Part shown: piece by piece, positions 5,782 to 58,370 of the stretch
Layout of the letters: each line of letters begins with the position of its first letter
Numbering within the stretch: position 1 is the first letter of the stretch
Source: Ethanoligenens harbinense YUAN-3
GTDB lineage: Bacteria; Bacillota; Clostridia; Oscillospirales; Ethanoligenentaceae
NCBI RefSeq assembly: GCF_000178115.2
Contig: NC_014828.1
Coordinates: forward strand, 2,077,310-2,141,309
Length of the DNA stretch: 64,000 nucleotides
Direction: 5' to 3'
The notes under the pieces: generated by a model
Told to the model about the DNA's origin: nothing
Seen by the model: the letters and a program-made list of their open reading frames with translations, nothing else
Database searches by the model: none
Translations under genes and position numbers: made by a program

Positions 5782-5807
5782 TTTAGCATATAAAATTAAA
5801 TATCAGA

Positions 5808-5886
5808 AAAGGCAAACTGACCGAAAGGCAGGGGCATAAAGCCAAGAGTCTAAGGTAAATAAACGTACTATGATAGTCTGGTTGCA
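5808..5886 (+). promoter_or_regulatory. GEMM-I (c-di-GMP-I) riboswitch
   Basis: The segment follows the GEMM-I consensus in order: GGCAAAC (5811-5817), a GAAA tetraloop between GACC and GGCAG, GGGGCATAAAGCC in place of GGGACGCAAAGCC, then GTCTAAGG...CTATGATAGTCTGGTTGC, whose TTGC pairs with the first GCAA to close P1. GEMM-I RNAs bind cyclic di-GMP. It is followed at once by an 18-bp terminator stem, so it probably controls readthrough to the right. The gene now downstream was moved away by the IS66 insertion. No clear own promoter is seen. Confidence 0.85.
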
Positions 5887-5887
5887 A

Positions 5888-5935
5888 AAAACATATCTTG
5901 ACTCTGCCACTCCGGATAGAGTCAAGATATGTTTT
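5888..5935 (+). terminator. Strong hairpin terminator (18-bp perfect stem)
   Basis: The arms 5888-5905 and 5918-5935 are exactly complementary around a 12-base loop, and the 3' arm ends in GTTTTGATTA. It directly follows the GEMM-I aptamer and should be its expression platform. It may also end the dehydratase-like operon and act in both directions. Confidence 0.8.
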
Positions 5936-5972: not shown

Positions 5973-7505
5973 TCAAATCAACGGGCACGCCCCCCAAGGC
6001 ATGAGGTTTTCAACATCCGCGCCATTGGGCGCTTCGGTGAAAATCTTTGTGAGGTACTCAAAAGGCACAAGACCATTCTCCCTGGCAGAGACGATCAAGC
6101 TGTAATAGATTGCGCTGGCTTTTGCACCGTTTGGCGTGTTGGAAAACAGCCAGTTCTTCCGTCCCATTACAAAAGGTCGAATGGCGTTTTCCGCGCGATT
6201 GTTACTGATTTCCAGCCGTCCGTCCAACAGATACCGCACAAGATACATGCGCTGTGACTGTGCATAATGGATTGCTTTACCCATCAGGGTTTTAGGCAGT
6301 TCCCGGAGCGATCCGACCCAGGCGTAGAACGCCTCAACCACCGGTTTACTTTGCTGTTCGCGTTCCTTCAAACGATCTTCCGGGGTCAGCAAAGTGAACT
6401 GTTTCTCCAAATGAAACAGCCTGTCACAGTAAGCAATCCCCTTTGCGGCGTCAGACGATTTCCGTTTATCCTTCGGCAGTGTTTGCAGCGCTTCGTCAAA
6501 TTTCCGACGCAGATGCGCCCAACAGCCCACCACGGTGATTCGGTCAGGCAGCTTGTGGTATCCGTCATAACCATCTGCATGGAGAAAACCTGAAAAATCC
6601 TCTAAGAAGTCTTTCGGACGGATATGCTTTCGATCCCGCTGGTAGTCATACAGCACAATCTGGCGCTTAGCCTCGCCGCTTGTACGATAAAGCCACATGT
6701 AACTTTTACTCTGGGCGGGCTTGCCGTCCTCATGCAGCACCTGAAGGGTGGTTTCGTCTGCGTGAAGGACTTGATGATTGCATAGCTGTCGCTTCATTTC
6801 CTGATAAATTGGCTCCAGCCAATCTTCACAGGCTCTGATGAGCCAGTTGGACATGGTTTGACGTGAGAGCAGAATGCCGCTTTGCGCCCACTCCTGCTCT
6901 TGCCGATAAAGCGGGCTGCCCATCACAAATTTTTGCACGGCGATATGGGCGACGGATTCGGGTGATGCGAACCCTCCCTTGATGACGGGTTTTGGCATCT
7001 CCGCCTTGACAATCGGCACACGATCAGAGGACTCCTCGCAGTGGCGGCAGGCATAGACGTGCCGTACATGGCGTACAATCACGGCTTTTGCCGGGATGAT
7101 TTTCAGTTCCTCACGGATGTCTTCCCCCATTTTGTGCAGAGGACAACCGCAGTCCGGACAGATACGCGCCTCGATCGGCAGCTCGTGTTCAATGGTCTCA
7201 ACAGGTAAATCTTCCGGCAACTTGTCGGTGGTCAGGCGCGTCTTTCTGCGGTAATGCGCCTTGACCTCGGTGGTTTCCGGCTCTGGCACGGTCAAATCGG
7301 CGGTTTGCTCTGCTTCGTTAAACAGACATAATTGTTCGTTGTCCGTCTGTTCACTGGACGCGCCGAATTGCTTACGTTTGGCCAGGCGGAATTGCTCCAT
7401 CAGCCACTGAATCTGCTGTTTTAGCTCGGCAATCTGCTCCGCCTGTTTGAGAAAATTCTCGTAAACAGAAAGCGGTATTTCAATTGTTTTTTCTTGTTTT
7501 TCCAT
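5973..7505 (-). CDS. tnpC: IS66 family transposase TnpC
   Basis: 510 residues, the normal length. It starts with a coiled-coil region (about 10-45, leucine-zipper-like EQIAELKQQIQWLMEQFRLAK), followed by the AKRKQFGASSE motif, a zinc-finger-like ICPDCGCPL...YACRHCEE (about 115-160) and the DDE catalytic domain. Candidate acidic residues lie in LHADETTLQVL, FLHADGYDGY and the C-terminal EISNNRAENAIRPF. TnpC is the catalytic transposase. The stop codon lies within the left terminal inverted repeat, as expected for a compact element. No frameshift is seen. Confidence 0.95.
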   Translation of the reverse strand: MEKQEKTIEIPLSVYENFLKQAEQIAELKQQIQWLMEQFRLAKRKQFGASSEQTDNEQLCLFNEAEQTADLTVPEPETTEVKAHYRRKTRLTTDKLPEDLPVETIEHELPIEARICPDCGCPLHKMGEDIREELKIIPAKAVIVRHVRHVYACRHCEESSDRVPIVKAEMPKPVIKGGFASPESVAHIAVQKFVMGSPLYRQEQEWAQSGILLSRQTMSNWLIRACEDWLEPIYQEMKRQLCNHQVLHADETTLQVLHEDGKPAQSKSYMWLYRTSGEAKRQIVLYDYQRDRKHIRPKDFLEDFSGFLHADGYDGYHKLPDRITVVGCWAHLRRKFDEALQTLPKDKRKSSDAAKGIAYCDRLFHLEKQFTLLTPEDRLKEREQQSKPVVEAFYAWVGSLRELPKTLMGKAIHYAQSQRMYLVRYLLDGRLEISNNRAENAIRPFVMGRKNWLFSNTPNGAKASAIYYSLIVSARENGLVPFEYLTKIFTEAPNGADVENLMPWGACPLI

Positions 7506-10006: not shown

Positions 10007-10543
10007 GGGAGCAACTTTTGCCCTGAAAATGAAAAGGTTTATGAGGGATATGTTTTTATTCTTCGCTGAACCTTGAAAATTGAATAAGGGACAAGCCGGA
10101 TACATACCGCGAGCAGCGGCATACAGGGAGCCGGGCGGCGGGTGCGCCACGATCTTTCCTTACGCGGGAGAGGGTGATTGATTTCAGCGTAACGGGAAGG
10201 GAGCGAAAAACACCAGCGCCGCAGGCAGAGCAGCGTCTTTCAGACGCAAGGCAGCTCTGCGGCAATTATCTGTATGTAATGAAACTTCCGTTCAGTCACA
10301 GTCCGAGCGTGATAAAACCGTCGCAGGCAATGAGAACGGCCCGCCATCATCATGGGGGGAGGTGCAATTCCTATGGTAACAGGTACGCCGCCTGTTCGTC
10401 CGGAATGTCTGTAAACATAAAAAGCAAATCGAAACAAAGGGACAACCGCGCCGAAATGCGACAGTCGTATGGCTGCTCTAGCCTGAAATCGGCGCGGCTG
10501 TCATCTTTTATATGGGTATGGTTTGGAATGGAGGTGTCTCTTT
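10007..10543. other. Structured non-coding spacer upstream of tnpW
   Basis: No convincing gene is present. Two strong foldbacks stand out. The first is a two-tier hairpin at 10218-10263: GCCGCAG pairs with CTGCGGC, enclosing GCGTCT-TTC-AGACGC. The second at 10446-10497 is closed by CCGCGCCGA/TCGGCGCGG. Between them is a G-rich stretch with a Shine-Dalgarno-like GGGGGGAGGTG near 10354. Comparable structured leaders precede recombinase modules of related elements. The function is unknown. Confidence 0.5.
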
Positions 10544-10854: not shown

Positions 10855-12519
10855 ATGATCGAAAAAACATACAACGTGGGCATCTACTGCCGACTGTCCA
10901 ACGACGATGAGCGCGACGGCGAATCCGCCAGCATTGAAAATCAAAAGTTGCTGCTCCAACGGTATGTCCGTGAGCGCGGCTGGAATGAAATCGACGTATA
11001 TACCGATGACGGATACTCCGGAACAAACTTCGACCGTCCCGGCGTCCAGCGGCTGATTGAGGATGCAAAAACAAAGCGCATCAACGTGATTTTGGTCAAG
11101 GATCTGTCGCGTTTCGGCAGAAACTACATTGAATTTGGACAATACACAGATTATCTGTTTCCTTCTATCGGGTGCCGCTTCATTGCGCTGAACAACGGCA
11201 TTGACACGGAAAGCACCAACGGCAGCACCGATGTCATGTGCTTTTTGAACTTATTTAACGAGTTCTACAGCCGGGATACCAGCAAGAAGGTCAAGGCCGT
11301 CAAGAAAGCGTGTGCGGAGGATGGCAAGTTTCTTGGAACTTACCCCGCTTATGGCTACAAGCGCGATCCTGCGGATAAGCACCACCTTGTAATCGACGAG
11401 GAAACCGCGCCGATTGTGCGCCGGATCTTCGCCATGCGCTGTCAGGGCATGGGCTTTTGGTCCATTGCCGTCGCGCTCAACGAGGAAGGAATTCAGCCGC
11501 CCGGAGTGCTGTACTATCAGCGCAAGGGGCGAAATGATCCGCGCAAGGTCAACCACCAGTGGGCCAATACCACCGTTCAGGTTATCCTCCGAAATGAGGT
11601 CTACATCGGTAATATGGTACAGGGCAAGCACGGGACGCTCTCGTATAAATCCCGCAAGCTCATTGTAAAACCGGAGGATGAATGGATACGGGTTGAAAAC
11701 ACGCATGAAGCAATCATTCCCCGCGACGTGTGGGATACGGTTGTCAGCATCGACCAAAAGAAGGTGCGGAAATCTCCCGCCGCAGAAGGCAGAAAAAGCA
11801 TCTTTACCGGTCTTGTCTACTGCGCCGACTGCGGTTTCAAAATGCGGTCCCACAATGAGACGCGCAAATACAGCGACGGCCACACGCAGGTGTTTCACTC
11901 CTTCATCTGCGGCAACTACAGCCGCAGCGGTAAAACCGCCTGCACCATCCACATGATTTATGAGGATGTGCTAAGTAAACTCGTGCTGGCGGACATCCGG
12001 GAAAAGGCGCAGTATGCGGAGTATGACCGGGATCGGCTCATAGCGCAGATTACCCGGCTGAAGGATAAGGAAAACCGCAGCCGCCTGTCCTCTTATGAGC
12101 AGGAGCTGAAAACGGCCACCACCCGTATCTCGGAGTTGGAAAAGCTGATGCAGAATCTTTACGAGGACAAATGCAAAGGCATCATCCCGCAGACCGTGTT
12201 CCAGACCCTGATGCAGAAATATGAATCCGAGCGCGCGGAAAAAGCCGCCGCAGTCCCTGAATTGGAACAGAAAGTCAAGACGCAGCTTGGAAACAAGCAG
12301 GACGCAGACCGTTGGACGGATATTATCCGGCGCTATACAGAAATCACAGAGCTGGATGAAACCATCCTGTTTGAGCTGGTTGACCGCATTGAGGTGGGCG
12401 AAACCAAAAAGCAGGGCGATCTTCGCATCTGCGACATCAAGGTGCATTACCGTTATGTCGGAAATGTGGATGAGGCGCTGACGCAGGAGAAGAGGGAGCG
12501 TTATGAAAAAGCTGTATAA
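10855..12519 (+). CDS. Large serine recombinase 1 (TnpX-like)
   Basis: 554 residues. The N-terminal resolvase domain (about 1-155) shows YCRLSNDDERDGESASIENQ with the presumed catalytic Ser16 in CRLS and the conserved KDLSRFGRNY and D-G-Y-S-G-T-N-F-D-R-P motifs. The recombinase domain (about 165-290) holds ANTTVQVILRNEVYIGNMVQGK. A zinc ribbon (about 315-370) has VYCADCGFKM and a matching downstream FICGNY...CTIH pair. A coiled-coil arm follows (about 395-465). Large serine recombinases cut and join att sites for excision and integration of the element. An ATG with GGGAGGT upstream starts it, and it overlaps recombinase 2 by 17 bases. The protein looks intact. Confidence 0.95.
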   Translation: MIEKTYNVGIYCRLSNDDERDGESASIENQKLLLQRYVRERGWNEIDVYTDDGYSGTNFDRPGVQRLIEDAKTKRINVILVKDLSRFGRNYIEFGQYTDYLFPSIGCRFIALNNGIDTESTNGSTDVMCFLNLFNEFYSRDTSKKVKAVKKACAEDGKFLGTYPAYGYKRDPADKHHLVIDEETAPIVRRIFAMRCQGMGFWSIAVALNEEGIQPPGVLYYQRKGRNDPRKVNHQWANTTVQVILRNEVYIGNMVQGKHGTLSYKSRKLIVKPEDEWIRVENTHEAIIPRDVWDTVVSIDQKKVRKSPAAEGRKSIFTGLVYCADCGFKMRSHNETRKYSDGHTQVFHSFICGNYSRSGKTACTIHMIYEDVLSKLVLADIREKAQYAEYDRDRLIAQITRLKDKENRSRLSSYEQELKTATTRISELEKLMQNLYEDKCKGIIPQTVFQTLMQKYESERAEKAAAVPELEQKVKTQLGNKQDADRWTDIIRRYTEITELDETILFELVDRIEVGETKKQGDLRICDIKVHYRYVGNVDEALTQEKRERYEKAV

Positions 12520-16391: not shown

Positions 16392-17588
16392 TCAGTTCAG
16401 AATCCGCCGCGCACAATCAAACTTGGACGCCCAATAACCGGAATTGATGTTATCAGTCACCACACCGACACCCGGTTTCTCGGCATTGACCATTTGTCCA
16501 CCGCCGACATAGATGCCCACATGGTCAATTGAGCCGCCGCTTACATGAAAGAAGACCAAGTCACCCGGCTGAAGCGCGCTTTTAGAAACAGCCGTGCCAT
16601 AACCAGCCTGTCCGGCCGCGGAATGCGGCAGACCAATATGAGCCGCATGCTGGTAAACATACATGACCAGACCGGAGCAGTCAAAACTGGTCGGACCGGC
16701 TGCATTCATTACATAGGAGCAACCGACAAACTGCTCGGCATACGAAACCAGCGCGGTAGCGTTGCCCAAAGCGGCCCCGGTCAGCTGCATTGTGTTGCTC
16801 GCCGTAGCCGTTGCGGTCAGTTGGGTCGCAGCCGCCTGTGCTGCAACCGCCGCGTTGATCTGGTCATTCGTCTGGGAAGCCTGCGCGTTCAAAGAATTGG
16901 CCTGCTGCTGCAGACTTTGCGAGCCTGCCTGCACCTGAGCCACAACCTGCGCCTGCTGTGCCAGTTGGGCGTTCAGAATGTCCTGCTTGGCGGCCGCCGC
17001 CCCCTGCACCTGCAACAGACTCTGCTTGGACTGATCCAGCGCCGTACGGTCGGCTTTCAGCTGGCTTTCATCCTGCTTCAGGCTCTGGATGATCTCGTTG
17101 TCGTGATCGGAAACCGCACGTACCACCGCCACACGTGTCAGGAAATCGCTGATGTCGTTTGAATTGAGCAGTACGGTCAGGAACGTATCGTCTCCGGACA
17201 TATACAGAGCACGCAAACGTTGCTTGAGCAATTCGGTATTCTGCTGGACACGCTGCTCGGTCGTCTGGATCTCATCTTCCTTGTTTGCAATCTGTGCGTT
17301 TACATTTTCGATCTGCTGTCTCAAAACAGCAAGCTGCCCTTGAATGATGGAAACCTCCTGATTGAGCGCCGCCTGTTTCGCTTTTTCGGTCTTCAGCTGA
17401 CTACTCTGCGCGTTCAGCTTGCCCTGCACCTGCTGGAGTTGCTGCTGCAGGGAAGCATATTGCTGCTTCCAATCGGAAATACTATCTGCCGAGGCTTGGA
17501 ACGGCACCAGCAGCATGCCTGCAGACAGAACGACCGTGCCGGCCAATATACGTAAATTCCATCGTTGTTTTTTCTCTGGTAAGTACAC
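16392..17588 (-). CDS. Secreted NlpC/P60 peptidoglycan hydrolase with coiled coil (CwlO/PcsB-like)
   Basis: 398 residues from a GTG 8 bases after GGGGGAG. A signal peptide is clear (basic start, hydrophobic LAGTVVLSAGMLLVPF, cleavage near QASA-DS at about 34). Residues about 38-270 form a long Gln/Ala-rich coiled coil. The last 120 residues are an NlpC/P60 domain with catalytic Cys in TSFDCSGLVMYVYQ, His in SIDHVGIYVGGG and a further polar residue in MVNAEKPG. Such enzymes cut D-Glu-diaminopimelate or similar peptide links and are held inactive by the coiled coil until activated, often by FtsEX. A WalR-like direct repeat lies just downstream of the predicted start point. The gene stands alone between its own terminator and that of nadE. 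Confidence 0.92.
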   Translation of the reverse strand: MYLPEKKQRWNLRILAGTVVLSAGMLLVPFQASADSISDWKQQYASLQQQLQQVQGKLNAQSSQLKTEKAKQAALNQEVSIIQGQLAVLRQQIENVNAQIANKEDEIQTTEQRVQQNTELLKQRLRALYMSGDDTFLTVLLNSNDISDFLTRVAVVRAVSDHDNEIIQSLKQDESQLKADRTALDQSKQSLLQVQGAAAAKQDILNAQLAQQAQVVAQVQAGSQSLQQQANSLNAQASQTNDQINAAVAAQAAATQLTATATASNTMQLTGAALGNATALVSYAEQFVGCSYVMNAAGPTSFDCSGLVMYVYQHAAHIGLPHSAAGQAGYGTAVSKSALQPGDLVFFHVSGGSIDHVGIYVGGGQMVNAEKPGVGVVTDNINSGYWASKFDCARRILN

Positions 17589-17730: not shown

Positions 17731-17747
17731 TGTAACTAAAATGTAAC
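17731..17747. promoter_or_regulatory. WalR-like box TGTAAC-N5-TGTAAC
   Basis: TGTAAC (17731-17736), five bases, TGTAAC (17742-17747) fits the WalR consensus TGTWAH-N5-TGTWAH exactly. It is read on the plus strand, opposite to the hydrolase gene, and lies just downstream of its predicted start point, a position that suggests repression. Cell-wall hydrolases of this type are classic WalR targets. Confidence 0.6.
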
Positions 17748-52599: not shown

Positions 52600-54030
52600 C
52601 TATTTGGAAATGACCGGCAGCGTAATGGTAACGGCCGTGCCCTTGCCTTCCTCACTGGCGATCTCCAGCGTGCCGCCATGCAGGCAGACGATCTCGTCCG
52701 CTACCGCAAGCCCGATACCGGAGCCGCGCCGCGTGGCGTTGCCCTTGAAAAACTTCTGTTTGACACGGGAGAGATCCCTTGCCGGGATGCCGCATCCCGT
52801 ATCGCTGACAATAATGCGGACATGGTTGCCGCAGTCGATCGCATCCACCTTGACCACGCCGCCCGCGTCTGAATATTTGAACGCGTTGTCCAGGATATTG
52901 ACGAACACCTGCCGCAGCCGGTTGCGGTCGCCCATCATGGGCGGCAGGCTGGCCGGCTCGTTGTATATGAACGTCAGGCCCTCGCGGTGCGCGCGGTCGG
53001 AAAACATCAGCACGGCCTCGCCCATTTCCGCGAGGATGTCGATCTTGTCGATGGCCATGCGGAAACGGCCGCTCTGCATCCGCGAAAAATCCAGCAGGTC
53101 TTCCACCATGGCGGAGAGCCGCCCGGTTTCATCCGTGATGACGCGCATGCCCTTATGAATGGTGTCGGTATCGCCGGGTGCGCAGCCCTGGATGGTTTCC
53201 GCCCAGCCTTTGATGGCGGTAAGCGGCGTGCGCAGTTCGTGCGAGACCGAGGAGATGAAATCGTTTTTGATGCGGTCGGCCGTGCCGAGCTCCCCGGCAA
53301 GGTTGTTGATGGTGTCGCAGAGCGCGCCGATTTCGTCGTCATAGCTTTTGCCGATGCGGGCGTTGTAATCGCCGGACGCGATGCGCCCCGCCATGGCGGT
53401 CACTTCGCGCACCGGCACCACGATGGAATTGATGAAATACATCCCCGAAAACAGAACGAACAGAATGATGGCAATGCAGATGATGCCGCTGATGAGCGAG
53501 AACAGAGCAATCTGCCAGTCCACCTCCGTCATCGAGACCACATAACGCGCGGCGCCCAGCTCTTTACCCTGAGAATCGCGCAGGATGCTGGTGACCGCCA
53601 TCACCTTTTCCCCTGTGGAGGCGTTCACGCCCATCCAGTTGCCAAGGCCCTGCGCGGATGCGCTCGCCTGCGTGAAATCCGGCATGGAGAGCTTCTGGTC
53701 GGGCAAGAAATCGCTGGAGGTGAGCAGAACGTCGCCCTTTTTGTTCAGGATGAGCAGCTCCATAATACCCCTGTCCGAGAAGCTGGCCACAAAATCCTTC
53801 GCGGTAGCGTAGAAATCCGGAGTCTGCGGGTCGATGTCGCGCGTGAACTGGGTGGCGCGCACCCGCGCCTCGGTGGTGAGATAACTCTGCACCGCGCTGT
53901 AATAGTAGTTGTGCACGGCAAAGGCAAATACGACCCACACGATGCCGAGGATGGCGACGATGATGCCCATGCTGTTGAACACCCACCGCCGGGTGATGCC
54001 TTTAAATATGAAGACCTGCCTGAATTTCAT
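52600..54030 (-). CDS. Membrane sensor histidine kinase
   Basis: 476 residues. Two transmembrane segments (about 14-38 and 175-200) flank an extracytoplasmic sensor of about 130 residues, followed by a HAMP linker (about 200-250). HisKA has the phosphorylated His in FISSVSHELRTPLTAIKGWAE. The ATPase domain shows the N box RQVFVNILDNAFKYS, G1 DTGCGIPARDL and G2 GSGIGLAVADEI. It works with the adjacent response regulator (spacing 48 bases). The lipoprotein in front of both may be its signal partner or target. The signal is unknown; the architecture is PhoR/ResE-like without PAS. Confidence 0.95.
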   Translation of the reverse strand: MKFRQVFIFKGITRRWVFNSMGIIVAILGIVWVVFAFAVHNYYYSAVQSYLTTEARVRATQFTRDIDPQTPDFYATAKDFVASFSDRGIMELLILNKKGDVLLTSSDFLPDQKLSMPDFTQASASAQGLGNWMGVNASTGEKVMAVTSILRDSQGKELGAARYVVSMTEVDWQIALFSLISGIICIAIILFVLFSGMYFINSIVVPVREVTAMAGRIASGDYNARIGKSYDDEIGALCDTINNLAGELGTADRIKNDFISSVSHELRTPLTAIKGWAETIQGCAPGDTDTIHKGMRVITDETGRLSAMVEDLLDFSRMQSGRFRMAIDKIDILAEMGEAVLMFSDRAHREGLTFIYNEPASLPPMMGDRNRLRQVFVNILDNAFKYSDAGGVVKVDAIDCGNHVRIIVSDTGCGIPARDLSRVKQKFFKGNATRRGSGIGLAVADEIVCLHGGTLEIASEEGKGTAVTITLPVISK

Positions 54031-54078: not shown

Positions 54079-54789
54079 TTACGCGGGTTCTCCTTTGCTC
54101 CACTTGTATCCGAACCCCCATACCGTGAGAATATGGCGGGGGGCCGACGGATCTTCCTCCACTTTCATCCGCAGCCGGCGGATATTGACGTCCACAATCT
54201 TCAGTTCGCCGAAATAATCCTCGCCCCACACATGGTTGAGAATATCCCCGCGGGAAAGCGCCGTGTCCGGGTTCTCCAGAAAATATTTCATGATCTGGTA
54301 TTCCATCTGTGTCAGTTCAATGGGCTGGCCGCGCCGGTAAAACGTGCGGCTTTTCGTATTCAGCACAAAATCCCCCGACACGATGCCGTTTTCGTCCTCT
54401 TTTTCACCGGCTTCGAGGTTCAGCCGGCGATAGAGCGCATCCACCCGCGCCACCAGTTCGGACGGGCTGAACGGCTTGGTCACATAGTCGTCCGCACCAA
54501 TCATCAGCCCGCCCACTTTGTCCATCTCCTGCGTGCGCGCCGTGAGCATGATGATGCCGAGCGTCTTGCTTTTCTGGCGCAGTTCCCGGCAGACGGCAAA
54601 GCCGTCTATCCCCGGCAGCATGATATCCAGCAGCGCGATGCGGATCTCGTTCCCGTGTGACTCATACAGCTTGAGCGCCGCCTCGCCCGTGCCTGCTTCC
54701 AGCACTTCATAGCCGGCCCGTTTGAGATTGATGATGACAAACTCACGGATGGCCTGCTCGTCTTCCACCACCAGGATGGTCTTGGTCAT
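54079..54789 (-). CDS. OmpR/PhoB-family response regulator
   Basis: 236 residues from the ATG at 54789 (AAGGAG upstream). The receiver domain shows VVEDEQAIREFV, the phosphoacceptor Asp in RIALLDIMLPGIDGF (about Asp53), MLTAR and the conserved Lys in DYVTKPFSPSELVAR. The C-terminal winged helix (about 135-230) ends in GEDYFGELKIVDVNIRRLRMKVEEDPSAPRHILTVWGFGYKW, standard for OmpR regulators. It pairs with the downstream kinase in the same operon. Confidence 0.96.
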   Translation of the reverse strand: MTKTILVVEDEQAIREFVIINLKRAGYEVLEAGTGEAALKLYESHGNEIRIALLDIMLPGIDGFAVCRELRQKSKTLGIIMLTARTQEMDKVGGLMIGADDYVTKPFSPSELVARVDALYRRLNLEAGEKEDENGIVSGDFVLNTKSRTFYRRGQPIELTQMEYQIMKYFLENPDTALSRGDILNHVWGEDYFGELKIVDVNIRRLRMKVEEDPSAPRHILTVWGFGYKWSKGEPA

Positions 54790-54856
54790 GCAATCTCCTT
54801 CTTTCCGTCTGCCCGCCGCCGCGCCCGGGGCGCCCGTCTGTTTCAAAGCCTGCCGC

Positions 54857-56203
54857 TCAGTCCACCAGTTTGAACTGCTGGCGCACCGTACCGATATCCA
54901 GCATATACGGGCTGTTTGCGCCCGCTGCATCAGCCTGATAGGCATACACCATGCCGTCGCTTTCGTCTATACGCTGCAAAGCGGTGTTTGCGCTCACGGT
55001 ACTCCACACATCGCTGGAATACGCCAGGATATCAAACAGGTGCGCGCCCACCGTCCGCGTGGCGGGGTTCCATTCATAAAACGCCCAGTCGGAATCGCCG
55101 TTCTCCCGCTGAACGGTGATCGTCTGCGTGCCGGTCTCCCATTTTGCCGGAAAAAGAAACGTGTATCCCTCCGTGCTGTTGATGACCGAGGAGAGTTTGG
55201 GGACCAGCGCGCCGTTTTTCCAGATCATCCACTGCACTTTCCAGATTTTTTCGGCGGATTTTGTGCCGCTGATCTCTTCATAGCCGGGAAGCTCGATCGG
55301 TACCGGGATCTCGATGCTGCCGTCCCCGTCGATATCCTGGCAGGTAACGGACACATCGCGCAGGGTCTCCGCATTCGCCATTTTCTGGTCCGGGTCATAC
55401 AGCGGGGAGGTAAGCTGCCCGTTTTTCCAAAGCACCATCTCCGTCACCATCTTATCGGGGCCCTTACGGCTGTCGATCAGCACGGCCGGAGACCCGTCCT
55501 CACTGGTGGGATACAGGCCGGCGTAACCGGTCACGGTGCTGTCGAGCGGTGCCTGGCTGACCGGCCCGACCGAACCGGCGGCGGCGCCCACCAGCTCTGC
55601 AGATGCCTTTTTGTCGGCGCCGTCAAGCTTCAGCAGCAACAGATCGTCGCGGTTGCCGCCGGTCATGTTCGCGCGGATCATCTCCGTATAGGTGTCGCGG
55701 TAGATCTTCTCATAATTGTTGCCGTGGAACGCATAGATGCCCAGCGCCATGTCGGTGCTTGTGAACGAGGTCCATCCCACGGCCAGTTCCTCGGTGCCGC
55801 TGCCGTCGAAATCACCGAACACGATCCGGTCAACTTCGTTGCCGTCCCCGCTGATGTCGCAGGTTTCCTTCCATTTAGAGCCCGCCTGATGCAGCACCAT
55901 GATGTGGGTGCCGCTTTTTTCTTTGGTGGGGCTGTAAAAAGCCAGCACCGAATTGGTGGCGCCGTGGTCGAAGCTGTGCAGTACGAAGGAGGAACGGTAG
56001 TCGCCGTTGTGCGGGTATTTGAGGGTGGGCGACCCGCCGCCCAGCGCGCTTGCGAGCGCCTGCTCGATGGCCTGCTGCTGTTTGGTCAGCTTCGGCGGGT
56101 TCATCAGCGCCGTGACGTCGGTGGACACGACCGTGCAGCCCGACAGCGCCGCCGCCAGCAAAAGAACCATACCGCAGAGCAGCCATTTTAAACCCTTACG
56201 CAC
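54857..56203 (-). CDS. Lipoprotein with VCBS/FG-GAP-like repeats
   Basis: 448 residues from the GTG at 56203 (AAAGGA 8 bases upstream); ATGs 9 and 21 bases earlier are possible. The signal peptide ends in the lipobox LAAALSGC (Cys about 20), so the protein is anchored outside the membrane. The mature part contains calcium-type Asp-rich loops: DISGDGNEVDRIVFGDFDGSGTEELAVGW, GGNRDDLLLLKLDG and CQDIDGDGSIEIPVPIEL, recalling FG-GAP/VCBS beta-propeller repeats. No catalytic site is seen. It is the first gene of the operon with the response regulator and kinase, so a sensory or target role for the two-component system is likely. Confidence 0.85.
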   Translation of the reverse strand: MRKGLKWLLCGMVLLLAAALSGCTVVSTDVTALMNPPKLTKQQQAIEQALASALGGGSPTLKYPHNGDYRSSFVLHSFDHGATNSVLAFYSPTKEKSGTHIMVLHQAGSKWKETCDISGDGNEVDRIVFGDFDGSGTEELAVGWTSFTSTDMALGIYAFHGNNYEKIYRDTYTEMIRANMTGGNRDDLLLLKLDGADKKASAELVGAAAGSVGPVSQAPLDSTVTGYAGLYPTSEDGSPAVLIDSRKGPDKMVTEMVLWKNGQLTSPLYDPDQKMANAETLRDVSVTCQDIDGDGSIEIPVPIELPGYEEISGTKSAEKIWKVQWMIWKNGALVPKLSSVINSTEGYTFLFPAKWETGTQTITVQRENGDSDWAFYEWNPATRTVGAHLFDILAYSSDVWSTVSANTALQRIDESDGMVYAYQADAAGANSPYMLDIGTVRQQFKLVD

Positions 56204-56286
56204 GCGTGACATCCTTTCCGGCATCGCCGAGCCGACCCGGCCGCCCGTTTTTCCCGCCGCACAGCGGGCGGGCGGCCATGTAAAGC

Positions 56287-56312
56287 AAAAAAAAACGCCG
56301 GTCAAAGCCGGC
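56287..56312 (-). terminator. Leader terminator ahead of the lipoprotein-TCS operon
   Basis: On the minus strand GCCGG-CTTTGA-CCGGC is followed by nine T residues. It lies between the extended -10 promoter at 56385-56393 and the GTG at 56203, about 65-90 bases into the transcript, so it looks like an attenuator. Nothing coding is visible in 56204-56446. Confidence 0.8.
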
Positions 56313-56384
56313 ACAAAAAATGGAGGGACAATGTAATCGGAAAAATTGCCAACTGAACTTCGGCAACATGATTTCCTACCACAA

Positions 56385-56393
56385 ATTATAGCA
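56385..56393 (-). promoter_or_regulatory. Extended -10 promoter of the lipoprotein-TCS operon
   Basis: On the minus strand TGCTATAAT, an extended -10 without a good -35. The predicted start near 56378 gives a leader with a small TTGCC/GGCAA hairpin (56346-56366) and then the terminator. Confidence 0.6.
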
Positions 56394-56446
56394 CCACTCC
56401 CGCCGCCGGTGGTTACACTTTTATTACAAACCTATTACTTTTTCTT

Positions 56447-56603: not shown

Positions 56604-58370
56604 TCAGCGTGTAAGCTCGCGGGGCTTCACGGCTTCGATACGCTTCCGAAGAACCAGGATCGTCGTCCCGATGGTGAAGCAAACAAAGAACGCCATCTGG
56701 AAATATGCCGACACCATATACTGCGGAATGATCGGCACTTCCGAGCTGACAAAGCCATAGGCGAAGATCAGCACGCGGAGGAAAAACGTCAGGAAAACAC
56801 CTGTGCAGACCAGCCAGTGCGGTCCGAAACGCAGTTTTCGTTTCCGGAACAGGCCGACCAGCAGGTAAACCGTCAGGAAAACATAGCAGCCGCAGGCGAT
56901 GACAAACAAGATGGGAAATACCTTTTGATACCCAATGGTCACCAAATTCAAGAACGTCAGTTTCTGGTGATTGAAGCGAATGGCGCCCTGATACAGCATG
57001 TACCCCGATGTGCGGACAAACGGCGTCTCTTTCGAGGTATCGGCGAAATCCGACGTTTTATCCCAGCTGCCCACCTCGTTGGTAACGGCCTGATAGATAT
57101 CATCGCCCGCCGGCATGGGGTCGCTTATGATCGGATACGGTGAGCAATCCTTGAACGTCACGTCATACCAGATCGCATAGAGCGTCTTTTTGACAGTCGG
57201 CACAAGGTAGGCGCCGCGCCACGGGGAAAGCATACCGACACTGATGGTCTTGGGATACGATTTGAGCTTTCCGCTGTCAAACGCCGCGTTCAGTTCGGCA
57301 GCAAGGCGCTTGTAATATGCGCTGGCAGTCGCCGCGTTTTTGCAATACCCCGCCGCAGCCACCGCGTTGCGCAGGTTCCAGGTGAAAAACGTGCCGTGCG
57401 TCTCCTGGTCGTCTGCATTAACGAAAATCGCCATCTTTTGCCCTTCCAGATACGGTTCCAGCTCCCGGAAGGCCGGACTGACCGCATACGCCGCCTGCCT
57501 TGCGGCCTTCGTCACCGGTACGTTGGGCATCCATTTGCCACCGTCGATCCGGCACAGGGCACTGTATGCGTTGATGAAATTCGCGTCGGCATATTCGTTG
57601 GTGACAAATTTCCCGTACGCATATGCGTTGGCCCCGGCGATGACGGCGCTGCACACCCCCACCAGAACAAACGGCAGAACCAAGACGGCAAGGCTTTTCA
57701 CGCGCGGCTTGCCCCTGAGTTTGAAGAAGGTCATAACGGCGCATAGCAGGCTGGCCACAACAATCAGCGGGAGTACCCACGCGGAGTCCTCGCGTGTGAG
57801 CAGCGTGGCCGCAAGAGACAGACCCAGCAGAACCGCCCATGGTTTCCATGCGGTATACCGCTCCCCGACCCGGGCATAGATCGCCACCATGCTTGAAACG
57901 GCAAGGAAAGCAAAACTGGCGCAGGTAAAATCCCGGATCACACGTGCGGTGGCGGTGGCGGTATAGCTGCCCGGATTGAACAGCACCACGCAGTACGACA
58001 CGGCAAGGATCGCCCGGCGGGGGATCAGCTTGCGGATGGCGACGATAAAGATGACGCAGGCAAACACGTAGAGGAGCTGCTGCGCAAGCAGCAGCGGGAT
58101 CCCTGTAAAATGGACCCCCGCCACGAACAGAGAATAAAACGCGCCTTTTACCAGCGTATTCTGGGTATAGACGCCCAGCCAGTGCCCGCGGATGATAGAG
58201 GCGGCGTGGGCCAGAAACACCGTATCGTCATCTTCCTGACCCGGCAGAAACGCGATCGGCTGGGCGGCCGTCATCCAAAGCCGGAAGAGCGTGACAGCGG
58301 CCATTGCCACGAGCAAATACAGCCGTTTCCGGTCAGGATATTTTTTCCAGCATGCGCGAATATACGACAT
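56604..58370 (-). CDS. Polytopic membrane protein, possible GT-C-type glycosyltransferase
   Basis: 588 residues with about ten to twelve transmembrane helices. A short cytoplasmic start (KKYPDRKRLY) leads into the first helix, then a loop with acidic residues FLPGQEDDDTVFLAHAASIIRGHWLG, which resembles the Asp-rich first external loop of GT-C glycosyltransferases such as PMT/ArnT. Later loops are long and extracytoplasmic (about 255-440, YADANFINAYSALCRIDGGKWMPN...). GT-C enzymes use lipid-linked sugars outside the membrane. Other motifs are not recognised, so the call is tentative. The gene stands alone. Confidence 0.7.
   Translation of the reverse strand: MSYIRACWKKYPDRKRLYLLVAMAAVTLFRLWMTAAQPIAFLPGQEDDDTVFLAHAASIIRGHWLGVYTQNTLVKGAFYSLFVAGVHFTGIPLLLAQQLLYVFACVIFIVAIRKLIPRRAILAVSYCVVLFNPGSYTATATARVIRDFTCASFAFLAVSSMVAIYARVGERYTAWKPWAVLLGLSLAATLLTREDSAWVLPLIVVASLLCAVMTFFKLRGKPRVKSLAVLVLPFVLVGVCSAVIAGANAYAYGKFVTNEYADANFINAYSALCRIDGGKWMPNVPVTKAARQAAYAVSPAFRELEPYLEGQKMAIFVNADDQETHGTFFTWNLRNAVAAAGYCKNAATASAYYKRLAAELNAAFDSGKLKSYPKTISVGMLSPWRGAYLVPTVKKTLYAIWYDVTFKDCSPYPIISDPMPAGDDIYQAVTNEVGSWDKTSDFADTSKETPFVRTSGYMLYQGAIRFNHQKLTFLNLVTIGYQKVFPILFVIACGCYVFLTVYLLVGLFRKRKLRFGPHWLVCTGVFLTFFLRVLIFAYGFVSSEVPIIPQYMVSAYFQMAFFVCFTIGTTILVLRKRIEAVKPRELTR

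Follow-up and report, generated by a model that had tools for sequence, protein, structure and literature searches.

A WalR-type box and an early intrinsic terminator in the leader of a WalR-like two-component operon of Ethanoligenens harbinense: a candidate autoregulated, attenuated promoter

Results

The leader and its operon

The window analysed here is the whole 64,000-nucleotide stretch covering bases 2077310-2141309 of the single-contig, 3,008,576-base genome of E. harbinense YUAN-3, and positions below refer to it unless another locus is named. On its minus strand, a leader lies between an upstream gene, which ends at 56604, and the GTG at which a five-gene operon begins (Table 1). Searches of the lipoprotein against Pfam and NCBIfam gave no match, and FG-GAP was found in its counterpart in the family relative G003. 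The upstream gene (56604-58370) was found in none of the three family relatives G001-G003, in a search without a positive control and in genomes that are all 60-76% complete. The sequence-only reading of this DNA had described an extended -10, a TTGCC/GGCAA hairpin, a GCCGG terminator with nine T residues and the operon start, all of which we located on the minus strand where it had put them; it had overlooked the WalR-type box at 56428-56412 and a 57-codon leader ORF.

Table 1 Features of the operon, its leader and the second box in the window
Feature	Position	Strand	Basis or remark
Lipoprotein, operon gene 1	54857..56203	-	GTG start at 56203
OmpR/PhoB-family response regulator, WalR-like	54079..54801	-	Domain and NCBIfam searches
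Histidine kinase, HAMP-HisKA-HATPase	52600..54030	-	Domain searches
DUF1385 protein, downstream in operon	52567-51575	-	
PrmC-domain protein, downstream in operon	51585-50698	-	
Third half-site AGTAAT	56434..56439	-	11 bp above the box; one-mismatch match at 56423-56439
WalR-type box TGTAAT-AAAAG-TGTAAC	56412..56428	-	Exact TGTWAH-N5-TGTWAH
Extended -10, TG-C-TATAAT	56385..56393	-	Sequence; TATAAT also in G003
Predicted ~90-nt leader RNA	56288..56378	-	Inferred from positions of -10 and terminator
First hairpin TTGCC...GGCAA	56346..56366	-	TTGCC 56366-56362, GGCAA 56350-56346; not conserved in G003
Unpaired anti-Shine-Dalgarno stretch ATTGTCCCTCCAT	56320..56332	-	CCUCC unpaired probability 0.88-0.99
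Intrinsic terminator GCCGG-CTTTGA-CCGGC, G, nine T	56287..56312	-	Scan, fold and G001 identity; arms 56312-56308 and 56301-56297, T run 56295-56287
Leader ORF, 57 codons, ATG after AGGA	56196..56369	-	Frame crosses terminator and overlaps lipoprotein start
Second exact box in the window	17731..17747	+	11 nt downstream of TATAAT (17764-17759, minus strand; by eye)

Promoter and WalR-type box

The leader promoter has no recognisable -35, and a two-hexamer promoter scan does not list it. Upstream of its TATAAT, at a distance of 21 nt, lies an exact match to the WalR consensus TGTWAH-N5-TGTWAH as given in PMC9210968. With transcription assumed to start about 7 nt past the -10, this box occupies about -50 to -34.

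Exact boxes are in excess. The window holds two against 0.05 expected, a number reached in 0 of 100 shuffles, and a larger sample of 501,503 bases (the window, three stretches around other regulators and twenty 20-kb stretches taken at even steps) contains five exact N5 boxes where shuffles predict 0.6. At other spacings these half-sites occur in this sample three times with N3, twice with N4, once with N6 and never with N7, and the box excess is therefore smaller by the spacing control than by the shuffles. One of the three exact boxes outside the window lies within a reading frame (L116, 6929) and another in the 5' portion of a listed frame of the YibE/F family (L119, 18305); the remaining one (L116, 14452-14468, minus strand) stands about 155 bases before the gene of an exported 1792-aa protein with NAGPA (phosphodiester-glycosidase), metallophosphatase and FIVAR domains.

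Just upstream of the leader box, at 56580-56454 on the minus strand, there is a further promoter-like element (TTTACT-17-TACAAT) followed by a terminator-like hairpin and a T run, which could be a second transcript of about 90 nt or the end of the upstream gene. The candidate transcript (56546-56453) has no Rfam match, and 32 of 200 shuffles fold as well.

Terminator and folding of the leader RNA

A loose terminator scan over 2.5 kb returned five sites against 3.2 expected and is therefore not decisive alone; a stricter scan expects 0.05 sites per 350-nt leader from mononucleotide shuffles. The terminator by itself folds at -9.6 kcal/mol (z -2.4; 4 of 200 shuffles as good) and the 92-nt RNA gives a z of -1.9 (8 of 200 as good). 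When the whole 192 nt to the gene start are folded, 61 of 200 shuffles do as well and the terminator hairpin is missing from the minimum-energy fold, because its 3' arm can pair with sequence made later; during transcription, polymerase would reach the terminator before that downstream sequence is made. Taken on a single sequence, these figures are modest, and the case rests on conservation. Between terminator and gene, the sole site listed by the promoter scan overlaps the start codon (56212-56185). The upstream gene was considered as owner of the terminator and rejected: the promoter lies in between, and the gene next upstream in G003 runs divergently, so the terminator there belongs to the leader.

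Between the terminator and the lipoprotein start we also observed a strong G+C-rich inverted repeat (GGCCGCCCG...CGGGCGGCC; 56276-56235, minus strand), which was not seen in G001 or G003.

The promoter-then-terminator arrangement had been read from the sequence as an attenuator or riboswitch, or as a small RNA. The attenuator or small-RNA layout holds up, as the arrangement recurs within the family, whereas the riboswitch found no support. Indeed, Rfam searches of the window at the gathering score and of the leader at E values up to 10 gave no family at threshold for the leader. Its five weak matches reach at best 17.2 of 55 bits; the alignments to RyhB (17.2 of 55 bits) and suhB (16.1 of 41) fall largely on the terminator and the C-rich part, and both families were set aside. 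The only antiterminator that could be drawn is a 7-bp pairing of -6.7 kcal/mol, against -9.6 for the terminator, and it does not form when the 5' part of the RNA is covered in the fold; nothing in the fold therefore points to a switch. When the leader DNA was compared with 59 genomes, the best non-self hit among the matches listed was 23 nt long (E 7.5e-4, G011) and covers the terminator and T run, and the other matches listed span at most 37 bases.

In the window, the anti-Shine-Dalgarno stretch sits between the two hairpins; it is missing from the G003 leader. An 18-mer around it has 17 matches in contigs of scattered taxa, which we take as chance. The ATG of the leader ORF lies about nine bases into the predicted RNA, no ATG was seen by eye at the matching place in G003, and the frame may be a chance one.

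Conservation among relatives

The lipoprotein occurs in 37 of the 59 genomes, the window's own included. The regulator (E up to 1e-55) occurs in 38, and with one lone 45% match set aside these are the same 37; its identity there is 50-79%, and the lipoprotein lies on the same contig in every one, which in G002 rests on the lipoprotein's C-terminal piece. Leaders were read at the 30 lipoprotein loci listed among these 37 genomes; the G001 leader is truncated by the end of its contig, and the comparison therefore covers 29 leaders of 350 nt.

Only two of the 29 carry an exact box, namely the window and G003. One more leader (L044) has a one-mismatch site, and no exact box is present in G002 or in 26 more distant leaders; a single two-mismatch site in the G002 leader, with 0.56 expected, was counted as absent. 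Both exact boxes end 21 nt before TATAAT. From box to -10, the window and G003 are identical at 32 of 44 bases, against 10 of 44 over the next 44 bases, and the other leaders compared with the window share at most 24 of 44 over the region from box to -10.

A strict scan of the sense strand found a terminator-like site in 6 of the 29 leaders, and within 120 nt of the start in three, the window, G003 and G033, the last with a poor T run. The G003 terminator has a different sequence at the same place, after a shorter and unrelated leader body. In the same-genus G001, whose contig begins at the terminator, 28 of 32 bases are identical to the window's at a lipoprotein identity of 52%, and the terminator is the one element seen; the G002 leader lacks the box as well as the terminator. 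Thus the two elements go together in a small family (this genome and G003, with the terminator only in G001) and not across the order.

Two of these loci have peculiarities of their own. In G001 (L032, G001:C56, 1-97), the lipoprotein frame contains no ATG, GTG or TTG from the terminator to the signal peptide, which would be explained by a start codon of an uncommon kind or by an error in the assembly. In G002 (L102, G002:C194, 1-3031), the lipoprotein gene is divergent from genes that resemble, by eye, mraZ and rsmH, with which a cluster of division and wall genes begins.

Boxes at PcsB-type hydrolase genes

The second exact box in the window belongs to a gene with a PcsB coiled coil and an NlpC/P60 domain (16392-17588, minus strand), and an identical 17-mer stands at the same place at its G001 ortholog. 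In total, two of the three PcsB-type genes of this genome have an exact box. At the paralog near 1719.5 kb (L181), the box overlaps a -10-like TATGAT, and three TTAC repeats at 11-bp spacing extend over this -10-like site (L181, 225-252); among further candidate sites for the regulator, this one is the clearest. The third paralog (L180, near 1801 kb) has only a two-mismatch box, with 0.71 expected by chance, and was not counted.

For comparison, upstream regions were read for 13 of 30 hydrolase loci, those with coiled-coil coverage, and for the window's own; NlpC-only matches were left out, and the genes were compared regardless of their place within an operon. Outside this genome and G001, none of the 12 upstream regions has a box, eight being from genomes with the regulator and four from genomes without it. 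A further PcsB-type gene in G003 likewise has no box upstream; by eye, it appears to be preceded by an FtsX-like gene.

Identity of the regulator and kinase

The response regulator consists of a receiver and a Trans_reg_C domain. Among NCBIfam models it scores highest with YycF (WalR), where its 220.7 bits fall short of the 340-bit equivalog cut-off that no protein of this genome passes, and it ranks third of 23 for this model, after the regulators at 1161205 (256.3 bits) and 2069249 (224.2 bits). Over its full length the best solved-structure match is RegX3, and its DNA-binding domain matches Staphylococcus aureus WalR best (77.8 bits), followed by OmpR (75.0) and VicR (73.5). A domain search found no PAS in the operon's kinase, whereas canonical WalK has an intracellular PAS. 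We describe the system as WalR-like and do not file it as WalRK.

Other parts of the window

In the rest of the window, Rfam recognised a c-di-GMP-I riboswitch (5801-5889, plus strand, 60.3 bits) and a pemK RNA motif (10276-10376, plus strand, 52.5 bits). The next listed frame after the riboswitch (5973-7505) has the opposite orientation and looks by eye like an IS66-type transposase, and the riboswitch is perhaps separated from its gene. A recombinase-like gene (10855-12519) lies close downstream of the pemK motif.

Discussion

We propose, with moderate confidence, that the leader is an autoregulated, attenuated promoter that the operon's own WalR-like regulator would activate and the early terminator would cap. 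From the sequence elements, their recurrence in the family and the box common to the hydrolase genes, all of which are observed, we infer that the direct repeats of 11-bp period at 56439-56412 are the binding site from which the phosphorylated regulator activates the extended -10 promoter. Polymerase would then meet the intrinsic terminator about 90 nt downstream, where most transcripts would end in vivo as a two-hairpin RNA of about 90 nt, and the remaining fraction would read through into the lipoprotein, regulator and kinase genes. The terminator would act as a fixed brake that limits positive feedback in this two-component system of the cell envelope. PcsB-type wall hydrolases are probably repressed by the same regulator, from boxes that coincide with the -10 or follow it closely. 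This assignment of signs follows the position rule reported in PMC4168254, by which activation is associated with sites that lie upstream of the -35, and repression with sites that overlap the promoter and extend into the start; by this rule, a box at about -50 to -34 would mean activation of the system's own operon, and the boxes at the PcsB-type genes would mean repression. The regulated step is most likely initiation, through the response-regulator box.

In favour of the proposed feedback loop we counted the excess of exact boxes, their recurrence in G003, the terminator kept in the family, the boxes at hydrolase genes, the WalR-like DNA-binding domain and the co-occurrence of lipoprotein and regulator, which together are consistent with it. 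Against it we counted the YycF score below the cut-off, the RegX3 and OmpR matches, the presence of the box in just 2 of 29 leaders and in none of the 12 PcsB-type upstream regions outside this genome and G001, the spacing control and the fold of the full leader.

One alternative concerns which regulator owns the box. Another OmpR-family regulator, such as that at 1161205, might be the true WalR, and the operon would then be a member of its regulon and not self-controlled. Against the YycF model, the 1161205 regulator indeed outscores every other protein of the genome (256 bits), and for WalK its kinase reaches 276.9 bits, versus 230.0 for the operon's, with PAS found in neither. The DNA-binding domain of the 1161205 regulator, however, is closest to SaeR (85.8 bits), with WalR at 65.2, whereas that of the operon's own regulator is closest to WalR (77.8 bits), and we consider this alternative quite unlikely. 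The remaining alternatives concern what the leader does. It might be the gene of a trans-acting small RNA of the csRNA type, in which an RNA of about 90 nt, driven by a response regulator, blocks translation of its targets and read-through into the operon is incidental. Hfq is encoded in the genome, and a regulator repeat, a -10, a terminator, two hairpins, an unpaired anti-Shine-Dalgarno stretch (with CCUCC here) and a length of about 90 nt are shared with the CiaR-controlled csRNAs of streptococci, whose genes were found through regulator repeat, -10 and terminator as described in PMC3091779. The box there is TTTAAG-N5-TTTAAG, as against TGTAAT-N5-TGTAAC here, and the csRNA search placed the last repeat half ten bases from the -10, as against 21 here, one 11-bp step more (PMC3091779). 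Moreover, the leader here precedes an operon, its anti-Shine-Dalgarno stretch is not conserved in G003, where the predicted RNA is much shorter, and CCUCC is not rare by chance in 90 nt. Matches to the start regions of 437 genes number 40, 11 and 3 at lengths 7, 8 and 9, against 17.2, 3.8 and 1.3, but such an excess is expected of any Shine-Dalgarno complement and no target stands out. A small-RNA gene of this kind is an unlikely reading of the leader.

The structured leader could also work through translation or sensing. In attenuation of the pyrBI type, a leader ORF crosses the terminator and ends at the next start, and ribosomes on the 57-codon frame here might similarly cross or mask the terminator and couple to the lipoprotein start. 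The geometry fits, with an ATG after AGGA about nine bases into the RNA and a frame that stays open past the terminator and ends over the lipoprotein start, but the ATG has no counterpart in G003, no pausing or nucleotide link was seen, covering the 5' part of the RNA yielded no convincing antiterminator, and G+C-rich DNA often contains long open frames by chance; such coupling seems improbable to us. A riboswitch, or another ligand- or protein-sensing attenuator of a new class, would likewise place a terminator after a structured leader at a position kept in the family, but with no Rfam match at threshold, a body between -10 and terminator that agrees with G003 at 10 of 44 bases, and an antiterminator weaker than the terminator, we regard it as highly improbable. 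The leader shares with the premature-terminator attenuators of PMC2965389 a terminator between promoter and first gene that recurs at the same gene across a family, and differs from those described there in that no signal or antiterminator was found, so that the terminator may be a fixed brake.

If the leader is an autoregulated, attenuated promoter, it would differ from the wal operons described for C. difficile and S. aureus in the papers cited here. A close parallel is the wal operon of Clostridioides difficile, walA-walR-walK-truA2, which has a lipoprotein, a regulator and a kinase in the same order; its WalK also lacks a PAS (PMC9210968). An envelope role is common to both, suggested here by the box at wall-hydrolase genes. 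In contrast, the C. difficile operon is reported not to be autoregulated, whereas an exact box and a leader terminator are present here, and, as compared by description, DUF1385 and prmC genes follow here in place of truA2 (PMC9210968). Likewise, the walRKHI promoter of S. aureus is reported to have no WalR site and its operon not to be autoregulated (PMC4801191), whereas here a site stands at the system's own promoter, and a 2023 paper calls autoregulation of VicR merely plausible (PMC10294662). The site itself is an exact match to the WalR/VicR sites of PMC9210968, PMC4801191 and PMC4168254, and it occurs also beside PcsB-type hydrolase genes, in keeping with the reported control of pcsB by VicR in streptococci (PMC11034029). 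Among the titles and opening lines of abstracts covered by our literature search, there was no autoregulated wal operon with a leader terminator and no WalR-driven leader RNA; set against those papers, a WalR-like operon that combines a regulator box with a leader terminator would be a new variant.

The feedback loop and the small RNA could also be parts of one arrangement, in which the WalR-type system activates its own operon, the terminator caps the loop and the short RNA made in dependence on the regulator acts on envelope mRNAs. We think this combination rather unlikely; if true, a single promoter would set the amount of the two-component system and supply a csRNA-like post-transcriptional arm. 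A small RNA linked to the Wal system has a precedent in SprX of S. aureus, which according to the review PMC9266662 acts on walR mRNA; SprX is a separate RNA that targets walR, whereas the RNA here is the operon's own leader.

In a lineage whose WalR-like operon has an exact site at its own promoter, followed by an early terminator that recurs, the loop controlling wall homeostasis would have been rewired. Feedback capped by attenuation could be studied there in a simple test system, and these little-studied Clostridia would gain a candidate small RNA that depends on a regulator.
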